From Halobacteriovorax sp. (GTDB taxonomy: Bacteria > Bdellovibrionota > Bacteriovoracia > Bacteriovoracales > Bacteriovoracaceae): a stretch of DNA of 64,000 nt. Position numbers and translations under genes: made by a program. The notes beneath the pieces are model-generated. The model saw nothing but the letters and a program-made list of their open reading frames with translations, did no database searches and was not told where the DNA came from. This document shows positions 31,405 through 40,247 of the stretch, piece by piece (positions within the stretch are counted from its first letter, which is position 1; every line of letters begins with the position of its first letter). The stretch covers positions 558,001 through 622,000 of the forward strand of contig PBIO01000014.1 of assembly GCA_002720865.1 (NCBI GenBank). The letters run 5' to 3'.

Positions 31405-31438
31405 GTCTAATTTATAAATCTCAAATATTTTCGCTATT

Positions 31439-31463
31439 TTACCGAACCTTCTGGGTTTGGTAA
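31439..31463. other. Hairpin between the aminopeptidase and helicase genes
   Basis: TTACCGAACC / GGTTTGGTAA (10 bp, one G-T pair) with a TTCTG loop. No T-run follows on either strand, so it is not a standard terminator. It could be a Rho-dependent end, mRNA-stabilising stem, or leader element of the helicase operon. Confidence 0.4.
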
Positions 31464-31502
31464 GATAGCTTTGTATTAACACTAAACAAGATTAGATAAG
31501 AC

Positions 31503-34160
31503 TTGAGCTCAGACTCGCTTCCAGAAATTCCCGATTACGCCGCCATTAGAGAATTATTAGAATCTGAACGGCGAGCTATAATAAAAGTAAATAAATTCTC
31601 CGAAGAAGATGAATATGTAAGAACCATTGCAGACGCAGGGCTGGTTCTTGATTTGGTTGAAGAAATTCAAACTAAACTTAATGACTTCTTTCAAAAATAT
31701 TCATCACTAATATCAAAATTTAATAAAGATTTTATTTCTTATGTTGAATTTATAAATAGAGATTTTATTTTAGATCTAATTTTTTTAGACGACTGCCTTT
31801 TTCCTGAAAAAGAAATGTTCTTCTTCGGTCAAGATGGAGGCTTAAATCCTGAGTTCTTTAAACTCCATATTAAAAGTATGGAAGAGTGGTGTATTGAGAC
31901 CGCCGGTCTTCACGATAGAAACCAAAGTAAATTAAAGGAAGAGTTCACTTTAGAGCTAAAAGTTTCAGAGATGGATTGCCACTGCGTAAAGTGTATTGCG
32001 GACTATCGAACTCAAACAAGAGAAAAAGTGTTTGATGATTGTAAAGAATTGATCTCAAAAGTAGAGAATGATCTCTTATCATTAATGAATGAAGGTGTTG
32101 AAGAAGTTAACGCAACCTATTTAGATCTACAAAAAAAATTAGATAGAATTTTTCATAAGGTAAGGACTAGGCTTAAGAGATCGACAATCAATCGATTAGA
32201 TACTCAAGTCAAAGCGATTATAAAAGAGAAATTCACTTATCCTTCAGAGCTTGCTAAAAAACGTGAAGAAGTTATCAAACCGATTCTTCTGAGAATGCTT
32301 GATGAACAGGAACTAAGTCACGATCTTATCGAGGACTCAGAATATAAAAGATTCTTTAATCAAATTAAAACCAATATCTGGAGAGGCGAACACTATATAG
32401 GTCGCGAATTTAAGAAAATGGTTAAGTCCTTATTACTTTTAAAGCGTAAGGATATTTCAGGGACAATCCTGCAAGAGTACTTAGGTGAATTCTGGGTGCA
32501 TTCCCAGGCCAGATCTATAAAAAGAAAGATTATCTATCATATGGGTCCAACCAACTCCGGTAAAACCTATCATGCAATTCAGAGATTATGTGAAGTTCAG
32601 TCCGGCTGCTATCTCGCTCCGCTTAGGTTATTGGCGGCAGAGCTCTACGATACAATGAACCAAAAAGGTGCAGTGACGACCTTACTAACCGGTGAAGAAG
32701 TTATTGAGATTGAAGGGGCGACTCATTATTCCTCAACAATTGAAATGGCCAGACTGCAAGAGCCCTTTGATTGTTGTGTAATCGATGAGATTCAAATGAT
32801 TACTGATCCTCAAAGAGGATGGGCCTGGACGAGGGCCCTCGTCAATATCATGGCGGAAGAAATTCATATCTGTGGGGATCCTTCAGTTCTAGATTTAGTT
32901 AAGAATATTGTAGAGCTTTGTGGAGACGAGATCGAAATAAAGAACTACGAAAGAATGACTGAGCTCAATGTGGAGAAAAAGCCAATTACTCTAGGTAATC
33001 TCGATCGCTCTGATGCTTTAATTGTTTTTTCAAGAAGGCAGGCTCTTAAATACAAAATGAATTTAGAACGTCTGAACTTTAAGGTTAGTATTGTATACGG
33101 TCGACTTTCTCCAGAAGTAAGACGTGAACAGGCCAGAAAGTTTGATCAAGGCGAAACTGATATAATGGTAAGTACCGATGCCATTGCAATGGGAATGAAC
33201 TTACCCATTAAAAGGATTGTTTTCTCAACTCTTTCCAAATTCTTTAATAACCAAGAACATTTAATTTCTCATAGTGAAATTAAACAAATTGCAGGGAGGG
33301 CTGGTCGTTATCAACGATTTCCCGTTGGCTTTGTATCCTGTTTAACAAGAGTTGAAGATGGTATTGATCAAATAAACGAAGCTATCCAGGCGACCCTAGA
33401 TCAAAAGAAAAAGTGTATGGTTGGTCCGGATTTAGATATCTTTAGCCAAGTTAATACGGCCCTTGAGGAAAACAATCTCCCTCAATTAAAACTTTCAGAA
33501 TTTCTAAGATTATTTAATACCATGCAATTTAAGAAACCTTTTTATTGTGTCGAGTTGAACGAGATGATTGAATTGGCTGAAATTGTTGAAGATGCCAATA
33601 GTGAAGAGGTTTTAACAACAGCGGAAATTTTTGGATTTACCTGTGCACCAGTAAACCAAGGCCTTGTTGATCATGTTCAGTACTATATTTGGATTCTGAA
33701 TAAATATGTAAATAATGATCCTATATTCTTTGACCCGATAGACTCGAACTCTGACGATATAGATTATTTAGAAACTTCAATTAAATGTGTAGAACTTTAC
33801 CAGTGGCTTTCAAGACATTTTAACAATAAGAACTTTGACTATGATGATGAAGCCCTTCATCTCAACAAATCTAAAGCCGTTGAAAAACTTAATGAGCTGC
33901 TTTCTAATAGAATTGTACCAACTTGTTCAAGCTGTGGTGTTAAGTTAGAAGAAAACTCTAAATTCGCCATTTGTGAAAAATGTTTTAAGGAGCGCCGCTT
34001 TAGTGGTGGGCGCGGCGGTTCGCGAGGTGGTCCAAAGGCAGGACAACGAGGTAGCGGAAGAGGACGTAACCATTCCGGTGGTCGAAGGGCGGCTTCAAAT
34101 GATAAATCAGGTTCTAAGAAAAAACACAAAACTCGAAAAAGAAAATTTAAAAAACGGTAA
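31503..34160 (+). CDS. SUV3-like RNA helicase with zinc ribbon and RGG/basic tail
   Basis: Superfamily 2 ATP-dependent RNA helicase close to mitochondrial SUV3. It has 885 residues. Residues 1-335 are helical and unrecognised. The helicase core shows Walker A MGPTNSGKTYHA (346-353), Ia APLRLLAAELY, II VIDEIQM near 426, GRLSPEVRREQARKFDQGETDIMVSTDAIAMGMNLP, and VI IKQIAGRAGRY. A SUV3-type C-terminal part follows. CSSCGVKLEENSKFAICEKC near 806-826 is a likely zinc ribbon. The last 50 residues are RGG-rich then Lys-rich, fit for RNA binding. The start is TTG with a poor ribosome site. DUF455 and ATP-grasp genes follow with gaps of three bases. Confidence 0.9.
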   Translation: MSSDSLPEIPDYAAIRELLESERRAIIKVNKFSEEDEYVRTIADAGLVLDLVEEIQTKLNDFFQKYSSLISKFNKDFISYVEFINRDFILDLIFLDDCLFPEKEMFFFGQDGGLNPEFFKLHIKSMEEWCIETAGLHDRNQSKLKEEFTLELKVSEMDCHCVKCIADYRTQTREKVFDDCKELISKVENDLLSLMNEGVEEVNATYLDLQKKLDRIFHKVRTRLKRSTINRLDTQVKAIIKEKFTYPSELAKKREEVIKPILLRMLDEQELSHDLIEDSEYKRFFNQIKTNIWRGEHYIGREFKKMVKSLLLLKRKDISGTILQEYLGEFWVHSQARSIKRKIIYHMGPTNSGKTYHAIQRLCEVQSGCYLAPLRLLAAELYDTMNQKGAVTTLLTGEEVIEIEGATHYSSTIEMARLQEPFDCCVIDEIQMITDPQRGWAWTRALVNIMAEEIHICGDPSVLDLVKNIVELCGDEIEIKNYERMTELNVEKKPITLGNLDRSDALIVFSRRQALKYKMNLERLNFKVSIVYGRLSPEVRREQARKFDQGETDIMVSTDAIAMGMNLPIKRIVFSTLSKFFNNQEHLISHSEIKQIAGRAGRYQRFPVGFVSCLTRVEDGIDQINEAIQATLDQKKKCMVGPDLDIFSQVNTALEENNLPQLKLSEFLRLFNTMQFKKPFYCVELNEMIELAEIVEDANSEEVLTTAEIFGFTCAPVNQGLVDHVQYYIWILNKYVNNDPIFFDPIDSNSDDIDYLETSIKCVELYQWLSRHFNNKNFDYDDEALHLNKSKAVEKLNELLSNRIVPTCSSCGVKLEENSKFAICEKCFKERRFSGGRGGSRGGPKAGQRGSGRGRNHSGGRRAASNDKSGSKKKHKTRKRKFKKR

Positions 34161-34163
34161 GTG

Positions 34164-34976
34164 ATGAAACTCAGTATTGCCGCGAAAGACATTCTTTTAG
34201 GCACGAGCTTAGACTCAAAACTACAAAACTTAGATAAGCTTGAGTTTGACCTTCATGAACAAAATCCTCTTCCACTAAATCCAGGACGGGATGCAACAAT
34301 TTCTTTTAGTGATAATCAGATAAAATTTCCGAAGAAAAAGTCTCTAAAAGTGGAATCTAATCGAGGTCTAGCACTTCATTTTTTTGCTAATCATGAACTT
34401 CTCGCTATTGAAATGATGGCCGCAGCTCTTTATTGTTATCCCTCTCGAAATGAGGAAGACATTAAGTTCAAGAAAGGAATTCTTTCTGCCCTAAAGGATG
34501 AGCAAAAGCACTTTCGATTATACTGTGAGAGAATGAATCAGTTAGGTGTAGGTTTTGGGGACTTCCCATTGAATGATTTTTTCTGGAGACAGATGATACA
34601 TTTAAAATCTCCACAGGAATTCTTTGCTCTGATGTCCTTAACATTTGAAATGGCAAACTTAGACTTTTGTATTCACTATAAAGAGATATTTGAAGAGTTG
34701 GATGATGAGGAAACCTTAAAAGTTTTAAATACCGTTTTAGAAGATGAAATTACCCACGTTTCAATTGGCAGATACTGGCTTGAACAATGGAAACCAAATG
34801 GTTCTCTATGGGATTATTATAGAAAACTATTGCCTGAAAAGATTACTCCTTCGAGGGCGAAGGGGATGATTTTCTCTAGAGAAATTAGAGAGAAAGCAGG
34901 ACTTGAGTCTGCATTTATTGATGAATTAGAATCCTATAAAGATGACTTTAAGATAACAAATAGAAAAGAGTGGTAA
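34164..34976 (+). CDS. DUF455 ferritin-like protein
   Basis: About 270 residues of the ferritin-like DUF455 family, structurally related to the tRNA hydroxylase MiaE. Di-iron ligand candidates are arranged as two helical pairs: Glu in ANHELLAIEMM, E113-x-x-H116 in KDEQKHF, E162 in TFEMANLDF, and E195-x-x-H198 in EDEITHV. A short N-terminal part contains NPGRDATISF, common in the family. A GTG at 34161 is an alternative start. It lies directly behind the helicase stop and three bases before the ATP-grasp-like gene. The substrate is unknown; oxidation of an RNA base or small molecule is conceivable. Confidence 0.82.
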   Translation: MKLSIAAKDILLGTSLDSKLQNLDKLEFDLHEQNPLPLNPGRDATISFSDNQIKFPKKKSLKVESNRGLALHFFANHELLAIEMMAAALYCYPSRNEEDIKFKKGILSALKDEQKHFRLYCERMNQLGVGFGDFPLNDFFWRQMIHLKSPQEFFALMSLTFEMANLDFCIHYKEIFEELDDEETLKVLNTVLEDEITHVSIGRYWLEQWKPNGSLWDYYRKLLPEKITPSRAKGMIFSREIREKAGLESAFIDELESYKDDFKITNRKEW

Positions 34977-34979
34977 ACG

Positions 34980-36077
34980 ATGACTCTCTATAGAGCCAAT
35001 TTTGATTACGAAAGTGAGTTATTTTGGACCAAAAGAGATAATTGGGCCGTAGAGATGCTTGAGCATTTACTCTTTTATTGTATTGATAAAAAAGACACCC
35101 TCTATTCCTCTAAATCGTACCCGTTAGATTACCTAGCATTTCTAAAGGACGCTCTAGGTTTTACACCGAGACTTAGTTCAATAGGAGAGCCTGAAAACTG
35201 GTGGGGAAAACTTGAAAATATAAAAAATGAAAAGGTTTTAAATTCAAAAGTTACTTCTTTTGAGTTAGCAAACGACCTTAACTTAAATCATTCGAAAAGT
35301 CGGTTGATCACCAATATAAATGACCTTCAAGAATTTTTAAACACGGAAAAGGATATTTTCTTAAGACACCCCTATGAAAGAGCCGGGAGAGTCAGTTTTA
35401 GGTTAAATTCTAAAGAGGTATTTGAGAGTCAAAAAAATAAAATTGAAAAAGTTTTAGAGACGCAGCCTCTGCTGGGAGATTTATACTTTGAGTCAAGAAG
35501 ATGGGACCTAGGGACTTGCTTAATTCAAAATGGTGGTAAATTCGAGGTTGGTTTTCAAATCAAAAATTTAAATGACTCCCAAGGTGTTTTTAGGGGAGCT
35601 GTTTTGCTCGACGAGATTATTGAGTCTGAAGAATTAGAAAAGATAGGCAAAGCCTATTATAAATTGGGGGCCAGAGAGTTAATACAGATTGATAGCTTTG
35701 CTTATGATGGAGGAATCAACTGGTTATGTGAGGCAAACTATAGAAAGACGATGGGGTATGTCGTTAGCAAATTAAAAAGAATGGTTCCACCGGAGGAGTC
35801 TGTAGCATTTTTGATGACTCCAAAGTCTTGGATGAAAGAATTTATTACTCATAAGCAATTACTAAAAGTATTAGAAGACTTAGAAGGGGTTTTTCCACTT
35901 TCACCAGTTGAGAATCCAATTTATTGTTGGTTAATTAGTGCAGATGGAAGAGAAAACTTACTCACAAAAGCTAAGGAATTATGGGCCCTTGTGGCTAAGG
36001 ATGGACAAGAATTTCCTAGTATTTATGAAAAAATCTTGCCCGATAAAAAAACTCCAGAAATTAAACTCCCCATTTAA
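34980..36077 (+). CDS. ATP-grasp-like protein
   Basis: 365 residues. The middle and C-terminal parts look like an ATP-grasp fold: SKSRLITNINDLQEFL, IFLRHPYERAGRVSFRL (phosphate-loop strand), QPLLGDLYFESRRWDLGTC (adenine/hinge region), GARELIQIDSFAYDG and the metal-binding LCEANYRKTMGYVV (E-x-N-x-R). The N-terminal about 100 residues are unrecognised. ATP-grasp enzymes ligate a carboxylate to an amine through an acyl phosphate. The tight spacing to the DUF455 gene suggests a two-step reaction with it. Assignment is from motifs only. Confidence 0.65.
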   Translation: MTLYRANFDYESELFWTKRDNWAVEMLEHLLFYCIDKKDTLYSSKSYPLDYLAFLKDALGFTPRLSSIGEPENWWGKLENIKNEKVLNSKVTSFELANDLNLNHSKSRLITNINDLQEFLNTEKDIFLRHPYERAGRVSFRLNSKEVFESQKNKIEKVLETQPLLGDLYFESRRWDLGTCLIQNGGKFEVGFQIKNLNDSQGVFRGAVLLDEIIESEELEKIGKAYYKLGARELIQIDSFAYDGGINWLCEANYRKTMGYVVSKLKRMVPPEESVAFLMTPKSWMKEFITHKQLLKVLEDLEGVFPLSPVENPIYCWLISADGRENLLTKAKELWALVAKDGQEFPSIYEKILPDKKTPEIKLPI

Positions 36078-36212: not shown

Positions 36213-37358
36213 ATGTTTGAAGACTTGATTGAAAAATTAAAAGCATCCATTGAGGAGCTACGAAAGAAACTGCCAGGTGGTGGCGGTGACGACGACGAGT
36301 ATGAAGATGATGATGACTATGAAGAAAAGTACCATGATGATGGTGACGAAGACGATGAGGGAAAAACAGTAAAGGTTCAAATAAAAGATCTTCTACAGGA
36401 AGGTGGCGAATCTGAAGATGAAGAAGCTGGTCCAAAAGAAAAAACGAAAAAAATATATACTGACGAAGACGATGAAGATGAAGACGATGAAGAAGACGAG
36501 GATGCAGACGCTGCGGCTCAAAAAAGAAAAAAGATTATTATCTATGCTGTGGCAGTACTTCTTATTGGGTTCTTACTTAAAGATGAGTTCATGCCTCCTG
36601 AGCCGGACCCTGTTGCGGTCCCAGTCGTAAAGCCTAAAAAACGAAAGCGAAAGAAACGAAAAAAACCTAAAAAAGTAGTTGAAGCTCCTGCTCAAGAGAA
36701 ACCAGCTGAAAAGCCAGCTGAAGCGGTCCCTGAAGCTGAGGCACCTAAGCCAGTAGTAGATGTTCCACCGGAAACGGCAGTAGGTTTACCTGAAGAGAAT
36801 AAGCCAGAGCCGACTGCTGCACCAGTGGTTGAAGCTCCAAAAGAGGAAACACCAGCAGAGCCAGTAGAAGCTCCAGCGGTTGAAGAGCCTAAAGCAACTG
36901 AATCAGAAGCTGCCACTGAAGTTACAGAGGTGTCAAAGCCTGCTGAAGACACTGGACTCGATATTCAACTAGGTGAAGAAACAGCTCCAAAGGTGGAAGA
37001 AAAACCGGCCGTCGATATGGCATCAAAAATTGAAAAGAAGCTAGAGTATGTCGCTCCTCCAAATTATGAGAGAAGTGGTCGAGGATTAATCTATAATTGT
37101 GTTGGAAAGCATTGGGCCTGTGTTGATAAGTTTAGTTACTTAACTTGTAAGGAAAACACAAAATGGTCTGGTCAAAATGCAAAGAAACCAGAATGTGTAA
37201 TCAAAAATGTCTACGCCTCTGTTGAGGACTGTAGCATTATCCAAAAACATTATATTGAGTCTTCTGAGCCAACTGGGTTTTGTGACAATATCCCAGGAGT
37301 GGAGAGTAAAGAAGTCGCTGAAGAAGTTTCAGAAGAAGTCGACTTACTAGGAGAGTAG
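36213..37358 (+). CDS. Acidic single-span membrane protein with Pro/Glu/Ala-rich linker
   Basis: 381 residues. An N-terminal helix (MFEDLIEKLKASIEELRKKL) leads into a run of Asp/Glu (24-100). One membrane span KIIIYAVAVLLIGFLL follows (about 107-122), then a very basic patch PKKRKRKKRKKPKK (141-154). A long Pro-Ala-Glu-Lys linker of about 110 residues resembles TonB-like linkers. The C-terminal domain has seven Cys (YNCVGKHWACVDKFSYLTC and so on), probably in the periplasm. This is the shape of a protein that bridges inner membrane and periplasm. I cannot name a family; gliding or secretion scaffolds have a similar outline. Confidence 0.75.
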   Translation: MFEDLIEKLKASIEELRKKLPGGGGDDDEYEDDDDYEEKYHDDGDEDDEGKTVKVQIKDLLQEGGESEDEEAGPKEKTKKIYTDEDDEDEDDEEDEDADAAAQKRKKIIIYAVAVLLIGFLLKDEFMPPEPDPVAVPVVKPKKRKRKKRKKPKKVVEAPAQEKPAEKPAEAVPEAEAPKPVVDVPPETAVGLPEENKPEPTAAPVVEAPKEETPAEPVEAPAVEEPKATESEAATEVTEVSKPAEDTGLDIQLGEETAPKVEEKPAVDMASKIEKKLEYVAPPNYERSGRGLIYNCVGKHWACVDKFSYLTCKENTKWSGQNAKKPECVIKNVYASVEDCSIIQKHYIESSEPTGFCDNIPGVESKEVAEEVSEEVDLLGE

Positions 37359-39092: not shown

Positions 39093-40247
39093 GTGAATAG
39101 ACTCATCTTTATATCCAAAGGAATGGAAGAAGGGGACCGAGCTGCTTATATTGAAAAAATAGCAGAAGAACTTGGTACTGTTTTTCAAAAACATGAACTA
39201 GGCGAAGCCCTAGAAGATCCAGGATTTTTATCTGATCGAGGGCAATGGCTCTTTTTATCTTGGCCCTTATGCCAAGAATCCCAAAAACTCATTAATGATT
39301 TGAAGATAGGCTTTTATCTTTTATACGATGGCTCGCAAGAACATGAGCCTGAATTCCTAAGGTTTCTTGAAAGTGATCGTAACTTAATATCTCCAATCGA
39401 TACGACTAGAGATCATAGGTTTCATATTCCGCTCCTTAGGAATGCCTCCCCTAGTTCACAAGATGAAAATCGAAAAGAGCTTCTTGGGGTAGGAGAAAAT
39501 TTAAATAAGATGATTGAGTTTTCAATGGCGGAACTTCAAAGAGTTAAAAGGCTCCATGAGCAAGTTGTTCCTATGAAGAACGATAACTTTAAAGGAGTTA
39601 AAATTCTTTCTAAGTTTGCCGCAGGAGAAGGGGCCGGTGGAGAGTTTTTTGATATAGTTAAAGGCGAACAAGAAGTTTTATTACTTCTGACAAATACAAC
39701 TAGTTACGTCGCTTCATCCATTATCTTATCTCATTTTGAAAAGCTAAGGGCATATAGCGAATTTGGAGAGAAGAGGTTAACTGATTTTATCTTAGGTCTA
39801 TCAGGCGAGTTAAAAGATTTAGGTCTTTTAGACATGAATGATACTGAAGCCCTTCAGCTTCTTGTTGTAAAAATAGATTTAAATAAAATGAAATTTAAAG
39901 GTTTTCAGTTTGGGAAGACTGAGCTTATCTCCTCGAAAGGGCATGTCTTAGGTACTAACGACTTTCCTTTAAATAAAGAGTTTTTAAGTCAGTCTGAATT
40001 TGGGTTTGATCTTGAAAGAGGGGAAAGGCTCGTGATTTCTAGTCCTGGGGTTAGGAAAAATTGCGGCGGATTTATGGACGAAAAAAAATACGAAGATTTC
40101 GTTCGAGAACGCTTACCTCTTGGGGCAAGAGATTTATTAAATGAAGTATATTTTCAACTAAAAAAGAAAAGAGATTCAGATTTTTTAAAATTTGATGCAT
40201 CTGTTATTTATATTGAGGTAGATAAAAATGTTATTGTTGAAGTTTAG
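39093..40247 (+). CDS. Degenerate PP2C/SpoIIE-like protein
   Basis: 384 residues. Residues 150-380 follow the outline of the SpoIIE/RsbU phosphatase domain: LHEQVVPMKNDNFKGVKILSKFAAGEGAGGEFFDIVKGEQEVLLLLTNTTSYVASSIILSHFEKL. The metal-binding Asp are changed: family GGDxxD reads GGE184FFD, the iaDvsGHG motif reads LTNTTSY, and the late tDG/E motif reads SSPGV. It is therefore probably not an active phosphatase. The first 115 residues are mixed alpha/beta and unrecognised. The start is GTG after AGGGGGC. Its last 20 bases overlap the next gene. Confidence 0.6.
   Translation: MNRLIFISKGMEEGDRAAYIEKIAEELGTVFQKHELGEALEDPGFLSDRGQWLFLSWPLCQESQKLINDLKIGFYLLYDGSQEHEPEFLRFLESDRNLISPIDTTRDHRFHIPLLRNASPSSQDENRKELLGVGENLNKMIEFSMAELQRVKRLHEQVVPMKNDNFKGVKILSKFAAGEGAGGEFFDIVKGEQEVLLLLTNTTSYVASSIILSHFEKLRAYSEFGEKRLTDFILGLSGELKDLGLLDMNDTEALQLLVVKIDLNKMKFKGFQFGKTELISSKGHVLGTNDFPLNKEFLSQSEFGFDLERGERLVISSPGVRKNCGGFMDEKKYEDFVRERLPLGARDLLNEVYFQLKKKRDSDFLKFDASVIYIEVDKNVIVEV

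Follow-up and report, generated by a model that had tools for sequence, protein, structure and literature searches.

Comparative analysis of a 64,000-nucleotide stretch of Halobacteriovorax sp. DNA (contig PBIO01000014.1, positions 558,001 to 622,000 of the forward strand; this whole stretch is called the window here, and coordinates are counted from its first letter) points to two adjacent genes as a probable functional unit: one encodes a DUF455 protein with a predicted ferritin-like di-iron fold (34161-34976, + strand, 271 amino acids [aa]), and the other encodes an ATP-grasp enzyme (34980-36077, + strand, 365 aa). They follow a gene for a SUV3-like RNA helicase (31503-34160, + strand), and the original prediction had read all three as an operon for the stepwise modification of RNA or of a small molecule; the unit consists of the second and third genes, not all three. 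Because the pair is kept together, lost together, and fused in relatives, the two proteins probably act at two points in a single small-molecule or peptide pathway. We consider it fairly probable that they form a two-enzyme module in which a di-iron oxygenase and an ATP-grasp ligase act on an amino-acid-like or peptide substrate.

Results

The ATP-grasp gene was present in 80 of 97 Bacteriovoracaceae genomes, a sample that includes draft and metagenome-assembled genomes, and 79 of these 80 also had a strong DUF455 match, the exception being G269. Among the 17 genomes that lack the ATP-grasp gene, 15 also lack DUF455, while one (G009) has a truncated DUF455 at a contig end and another (G202) has only a weak, paralogue-like match. 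The distance from the DUF455 open reading frame (ORF) to the ATP-grasp ORF was -44 to +3 nucleotides in 38 of 39 loci; since the two ORFs overlap or adjoin in nearly every locus, the arrangement is not due to chance. Two loci without the pair (L196 and L204) retain the M28 peptidase gene, the SUV3 gene, the counterpart of the window's gene at 36213, the HD domain gene, and the counterpart of the gene at 39093, all in order, so that the pair alone is gone; joint loss was likewise seen in L194, L195, and L203, with fewer neighbors retained. In the genome G003 the pair is found on a separate contig, with other genes around it and its ORFs still overlapping. Plain vertical synteny, in which neighbors are inherited together without a functional link, could appeal to the flanking M28 peptidase, NMO, HD domain, and 36213 genes, which are syntenic as well; this explanation is scarcely credible and is already contradicted by the fusions found in many genomes, by the joint loss with neighbors kept, and by the intact pair elsewhere in G003.

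The phylum Bdellovibrionota was searched in depth, and 14 verified ORFs of 594 to 802 aa (L121-L132, L134, and L135, the last cut at its N terminus) were found in other families of the phylum in which the two proteins are joined into a single chain. DUF455 (PF04305; E values of 5e-49 to 5e-37) is always N-terminal and the region matching the ATP-grasp profile (E values of 2e-14 to 2e-24) C-terminal, and the fusions span at least seven families (f3, f8, f12, f14, f20, f22, and f23); a fifteenth (L185) is interrupted by a contig end. In the DUF455 tree, the linked and fused forms fall on one side of a branch with support values of 100/99, and 17 stand-alone sequences, together with 3 sequences from other phyla, fall on the other. 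No ATP-grasp gene was found beside the stand-alone DUF455 genes of Bdellovibrio-like families in the loci inspected. The ATP-grasp tree is poorly resolved and does not show a single origin for the pair; in it, the fusions lie nearer to Bacteroidota homologs than to the family's own copies. Outside the phylum, plasmid records were searched for the pair.

The SUV3 gene behaves differently from the pair. Of the 97 family genomes 96 have it, among them all 17 that lack the ATP-grasp gene, and it lies directly upstream from DUF455 in 62 of the 69 genomes for which both positions are listed on one contig; in several genomes another gene stands between the two. Many of the fusion-bearing genomes have no SUV3 match, and in others the match is weak (E values of about 1e-9 to 1e-5). 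The expectation that the genes of the locus would co-occur was thus borne out almost perfectly for DUF455 and ATP-grasp, whereas SUV3 is kept without them, and its inclusion in the system is unsupported. SUV3 is probably a conserved syntenic neighbor that takes no functional part in the pair, though it may share a transcript with it.

These observations bear directly on the proposal of a stepwise RNA modification, in which SUV3 would unwind the RNA, DUF455 would hydroxylate it, and the ATP-grasp protein would ligate a group onto the nucleoside. The frequent position of SUV3 immediately upstream is in keeping with this, as is the genome G190, where the ATP-grasp gene remains beside SUV3, and MiaE provides an example of a ferritin-like di-iron tRNA hydroxylase. 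Against it stand the retention of SUV3 in genomes that lack the ATP-grasp gene, its absence or weak match in those with fusions, the insertions between SUV3 and DUF455, the relocated pair of G003, and the lack of any sequence-level match of DUF455 to MiaE. The DUF455 protein gave no Pfam match to the MiaE family (PF06175) at E ≤ 1, and MiaE is absent from the listed structural matches to its model; MiaE itself had no match in the host genome, but none in any control genome either, so this result carries no weight. The RNA substrate, which had been proposed from the SUV3 gene and the MiaE likeness only, draws no support from anything but the adjacent helicase, the likeness itself found no specific support, and we judge an RNA modification involving SUV3 to be very unlikely.

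The DUF455 protein matches PF04305 with an E value of 4.3e-49 (167.8 bits; Pfam cutoff, 34.3). Its start is likelier to be the ATG at 34164 than position 34161, to judge from the starts of its relatives. Six predicted di-iron ligands in the order E, ExxH, E, ExxH (34395-34757, + strand) are invariant in 29 linked or fused DUF455 sequences, so that the di-iron motif originally proposed is borne out: E79 (34395-34397), E114 (34500-34502), H117 (34509-34511), E163 (34647-34649), E196 (34746-34748), and H199 (34755-34757). The structure model, with a predicted local distance difference test (pLDDT) score of 94.7, is a ferritin-like bundle. Foldseek returned weak E values for this model (best, 0.02), and VIA-align matched it to ferritin-like proteins with Z scores of up to 15.2. 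A ferritin-like, di-iron protein is thus supported, with iron binding and oxygen chemistry predicted from the conserved ligands and the model. Shorter and weaker DUF455-like matches also occur away from the ATP-grasp gene in some genomes, for example at 88533-88982 of G006:C8 and 1103710-1104138 of G015:C1. No assigned function for DUF455, a widespread family, was found in the open-licence literature.

The structural comparisons leave room for a role of DUF455 in iron or oxidative stress, as a ferroxidase-like protein, with the ATP-grasp enzyme making a dipeptide that is metallophore-like or acts as a redox buffer; the proteins would then be functionally related, each with its own substrate. 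The model aligns with bacterioferritin and Dps (Z scores of about 14 to 15 over 136 to 151 residues) as well as with oxygenases, and a stand-alone DUF455 gene in Sinorhizobium comes after a peroxiredoxin gene. The longest alignments, however, are with aldehyde-deformylating oxygenase (185 to 189 residues), although at Z scores of 14.7 to 14.8 they are tied with those of the bacterioferritins, and the corresponding hint from sequence is weak (E value of 0.06). The fusion into one chain also favors successive steps, and we regard the iron or stress role as rather doubtful.

The family DUF455 proteins end in a conserved tail with the consensus [DE]-F-x-[IV]-T-x-R-K-x-W (DDFKITNRKEW in the window; 34932-34973, + strand), which is modeled with low confidence. 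A linker takes its place in the fusions, and it is not found in stand-alone DUF455. The tail is possibly a docking peptide for the ATP-grasp protein. In many relatives its last codons overlap the start codon of the next gene, and the codons for its final EW often contain the downstream ATG, so that its conservation may lie partly at the DNA level, in the start codon and ribosome-binding site of that gene. This weakens a reading of the tail as a pure protein signal, though the Trp is kept without such overlap in the window, in L023 and L228, and in the relocated DUF455 of G190 (L206). The tail also bears on the idea that the ATP-grasp protein modifies DUF455 itself, for example by ligation to the C-terminal tail, or matures or regulates it. 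A conserved but poorly modeled C terminus that persists even in the relocated copy would suit such a target; the fusions, however, have a linker instead and offer no free C terminus there, and the motif is perhaps partly constrained by the overlapping gene start. We consider modification of DUF455 by its partner unlikely.

Single-sequence searches with the ATP-grasp protein gave no significant or usable match in Pfam, NCBIfam, the PDB, or plasmid records. A profile built from sixteen family members (21 to 81% identity to the window copy) matched PurK in the PDB with an E value of 8.6e-5 and an ATP-grasp peptide ligase with an E value of 0.008, the latter aligned at the same motif. D238, E251, N253, R255, and G259 (35691-35756, + strand), which include the ExNxR motif and represent the putative metal and ATP residues, are invariant in the sixteen members; in a wider alignment, D238, N253, R255, and G259 were found in 34 of 34 homologs and E251 in 33 of 34. 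The putative ATP-binding loop, identified by alignment of homologs, runs from R129 to G136 (35364-35387, + strand). In the window copy Arg129 replaces the usual ATP-binding Lys; Arg occurs at this position in 7 of the 16 family members and Lys in the other 9 and in all fusions. An AlphaFold2 model, proposed earlier as a check, has an ATP-grasp fold with a pLDDT of 91.5. Foldseek matched it to a Streptomyces ATP-grasp peptide ligase (8ynd) with an E value of 2e-16, and the structural alignments were best with PGM1 (3wvq; Z score, 28.2; root mean square deviation, 3.1; 328 residues aligned), followed by BesA (8yi6; Z score, 27.3; 335 residues) and 8ynd (Z score, 26.5; 318 residues), while PurK (Z score, 20.3) and biotin carboxylases (about 20) scored lower. 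Because of the family profile, the invariant D and ExNxR residues, and the confident model, the protein is an ATP-grasp enzyme, as originally suspected, nearest to peptide and amino-acid ligases; a ligase activity would be in line with the model.

Relatives of the ATP-grasp protein also occur as single genes elsewhere. An N-terminal start of the form N-x-[DP]-x-x-[ED] and the catalytic residues are common to those of Parabacteroides, Bacteroides, Prevotella, and Streptomyces, which indicates a broader family. The copies in Parabacteroides (L160:5992-7200), Prevotella (L162:5995-7104), and Bacteroides (L163:5932-7191) are about 370 to 420 aa long and start with FNPGHE or FNPEHD; where annotated, the Bacteroidota relatives are called hypothetical, and they are conserved over several genera. 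On a plasmid of Streptomyces sp. BB1-1-1 (L161:5977-7173), the relative stands in a biosynthetic neighborhood, whose genes encode a radical SAM protein, an acyl carrier protein, a condensation domain, and Gfo/Idh/MocA oxidoreductases. In G269, an ORF of 879 aa (L187:7335-9974, - strand) joins a NodU/CmcH-type carbamoyltransferase (PF16861, E value of 2.6e-46; PF02543, E value of 2.7e-9) to an ATP-grasp domain and is followed by a glycosyltransferase gene; this genome has no SUV3 match and a very weak DUF455 match. The carbamoyltransferase fusion suggests that other enzymes of small-molecule tailoring, too, can be partners of this domain.

As to the remaining features of the locus, the ORF coordinates confirm a run of three + strand genes, as originally described, with gaps of 0 to 3 bases. 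The SUV3 protein (885 aa, TTG start) has a DEXQ-box SUV3 helicase domain (PF22527, E value of 7.7e-64), a helicase C domain (PF00271, E value of 2e-14), and an RG-rich C-terminal tail; the SUV3 C-terminal domain PF12513 scored 19.9 bits, under the cutoff of 27. A terminator-like hairpin of 17 pairs with a T-rich tail (31433-31469, + strand) sits between the upstream M28 peptidase gene and SUV3 and, as a match to the consensus, probably marks the end of the M28 peptidase transcript. The gene 3' of the unit (36213-37358) encodes a protein with a very acidic N terminus, a hydrophobic stretch, a region rich in Pro, Lys, and Glu, and a Cys-containing C-terminal domain; it has no Pfam family and is syntenic over the Bacteriovoracaceae, even in genomes without the pair. 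With respect to antiphage defense, the DUF455 and ATP-grasp proteins had no PADLOC match, and SUV3 matched generic helicase models only.

Discussion

Our results point to a two-step chemistry, for which the following scheme may be proposed. The ATP-grasp protein would activate a carboxylate with ATP, as an acyl phosphate, and link it to an amine, forming an amide; judging by its nearest folds, an amino acid or short peptide is the most likely substrate class. The di-iron center of DUF455 would use O2 for the oxidation or hydroxylation of that molecule, either preceding or following the ligation. In the Bacteriovoracaceae these would be separate, translationally coupled proteins, possibly docked via the conserved DUF455 tail, and fusion or docking would hold the two steps together, with SUV3 outside the chemistry. 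The shared substrate, the O2 chemistry, the iron binding, and the ligase activity are suggested by gene arrangement, conserved residues, and models.

Several observations weigh against this two-enzyme module. Ferritin-like bundles are also found among iron-storage proteins, and similarity of fold does not establish a function; carboxylases, too, resemble the PGM1-like ATP-grasp fold, at Z scores of about 20. The ATP-binding Lys of most relatives is replaced by Arg129 in the window copy; this is a conservative change which, by itself, would still be compatible with activity. ATP-grasp relatives occur without an adjacent DUF455 in Bacteroidota and Streptomyces, so the ligase is not always dependent on a DUF455 partner. 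Finally, G190 has its ATP-grasp gene immediately after SUV3 (L205), and DUF455 has been relocated and stands alone elsewhere (L206), but is present. On the other side, both the di-iron and the ATP-grasp motifs are conserved in relatives, where their loss would have counted against the original prediction.

The absence of a described system of this exact kind, noted at the outset together with a stepwise modification, is supported: we found no described DUF455 and ATP-grasp system in the open-licence literature, and the ferritin-like DUF455 di-iron family and its ATP-grasp fusion appear to be undescribed. More tentatively, a ferritin-like oxygenase and an ATP-grasp ligase, docked or within a single chain, might constitute a previously undescribed enzyme family whose product, an oxidized amino-acid or peptide conjugate, has been long retained in the Bdellovibrionota, including the Bacteriovoracaceae. 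The natural fusion links one DUF455 clade to a bond-forming partner and thereby makes a first biochemical test possible; if the proposal is true, it points to a metabolite retained by most Bacteriovoracaceae.

Among known proteins, MiaE is a ferritin-like di-iron hydroxylase and the window's DUF455 protein a predicted ferritin-like di-iron protein, without a Pfam match between them, and aldehyde-deformylating oxygenase (5k53, 6jzu, and 4kvs), for all the length of its alignment, has an identity of 12 to 14%. The stand-alone DUF455 proteins of Bdellovibrio-like families and Proteobacteria belong to the same Pfam family and have the same predicted di-iron fold, but they form a separate clade, have no ATP-grasp neighbor in the inspected loci, and lack the NRKxW tail. 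For the ATP-grasp protein, the nearest solved folds are those of PGM1, the pheganomycin peptide ligase, and BesA, whose D and ExNxR residues it has; it differs from them in its identity of 11 to 14%, its shorter length, its own N-terminal NFDYE/FNPxxE domain, and the Arg that replaces the ATP-site Lys in the lineage. In logic, the nearest precedent is the clusters of heme-oxygenase-like di-iron oxidases (HDOs) and ATP-grasp ligases, which make modified oligopeptides; a count of 1447 HDO sequences near an ATP-grasp ligase has been reported, along with at least 25 such clusters (PMC13185094). In the mangotoxin cluster, with mboA beside mboC/mboD (PMC13185094), a di-iron oxidase adjoins an ATP-grasp amino-acid ligase, as a predicted di-iron protein adjoins an ATP-grasp enzyme in the window, but the di-iron partner here is the DUF455 protein, whose model matches ferritin-like bundles and not a heme-oxygenase-like one, and the system comprises two genes only, vertically inherited in one bacterial family and fused elsewhere. 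If the proposed module is correct, the pairing of a di-iron oxidase with an ATP-grasp ligase, as known for the HDO enzymes, would gain a ferritin-like branch.

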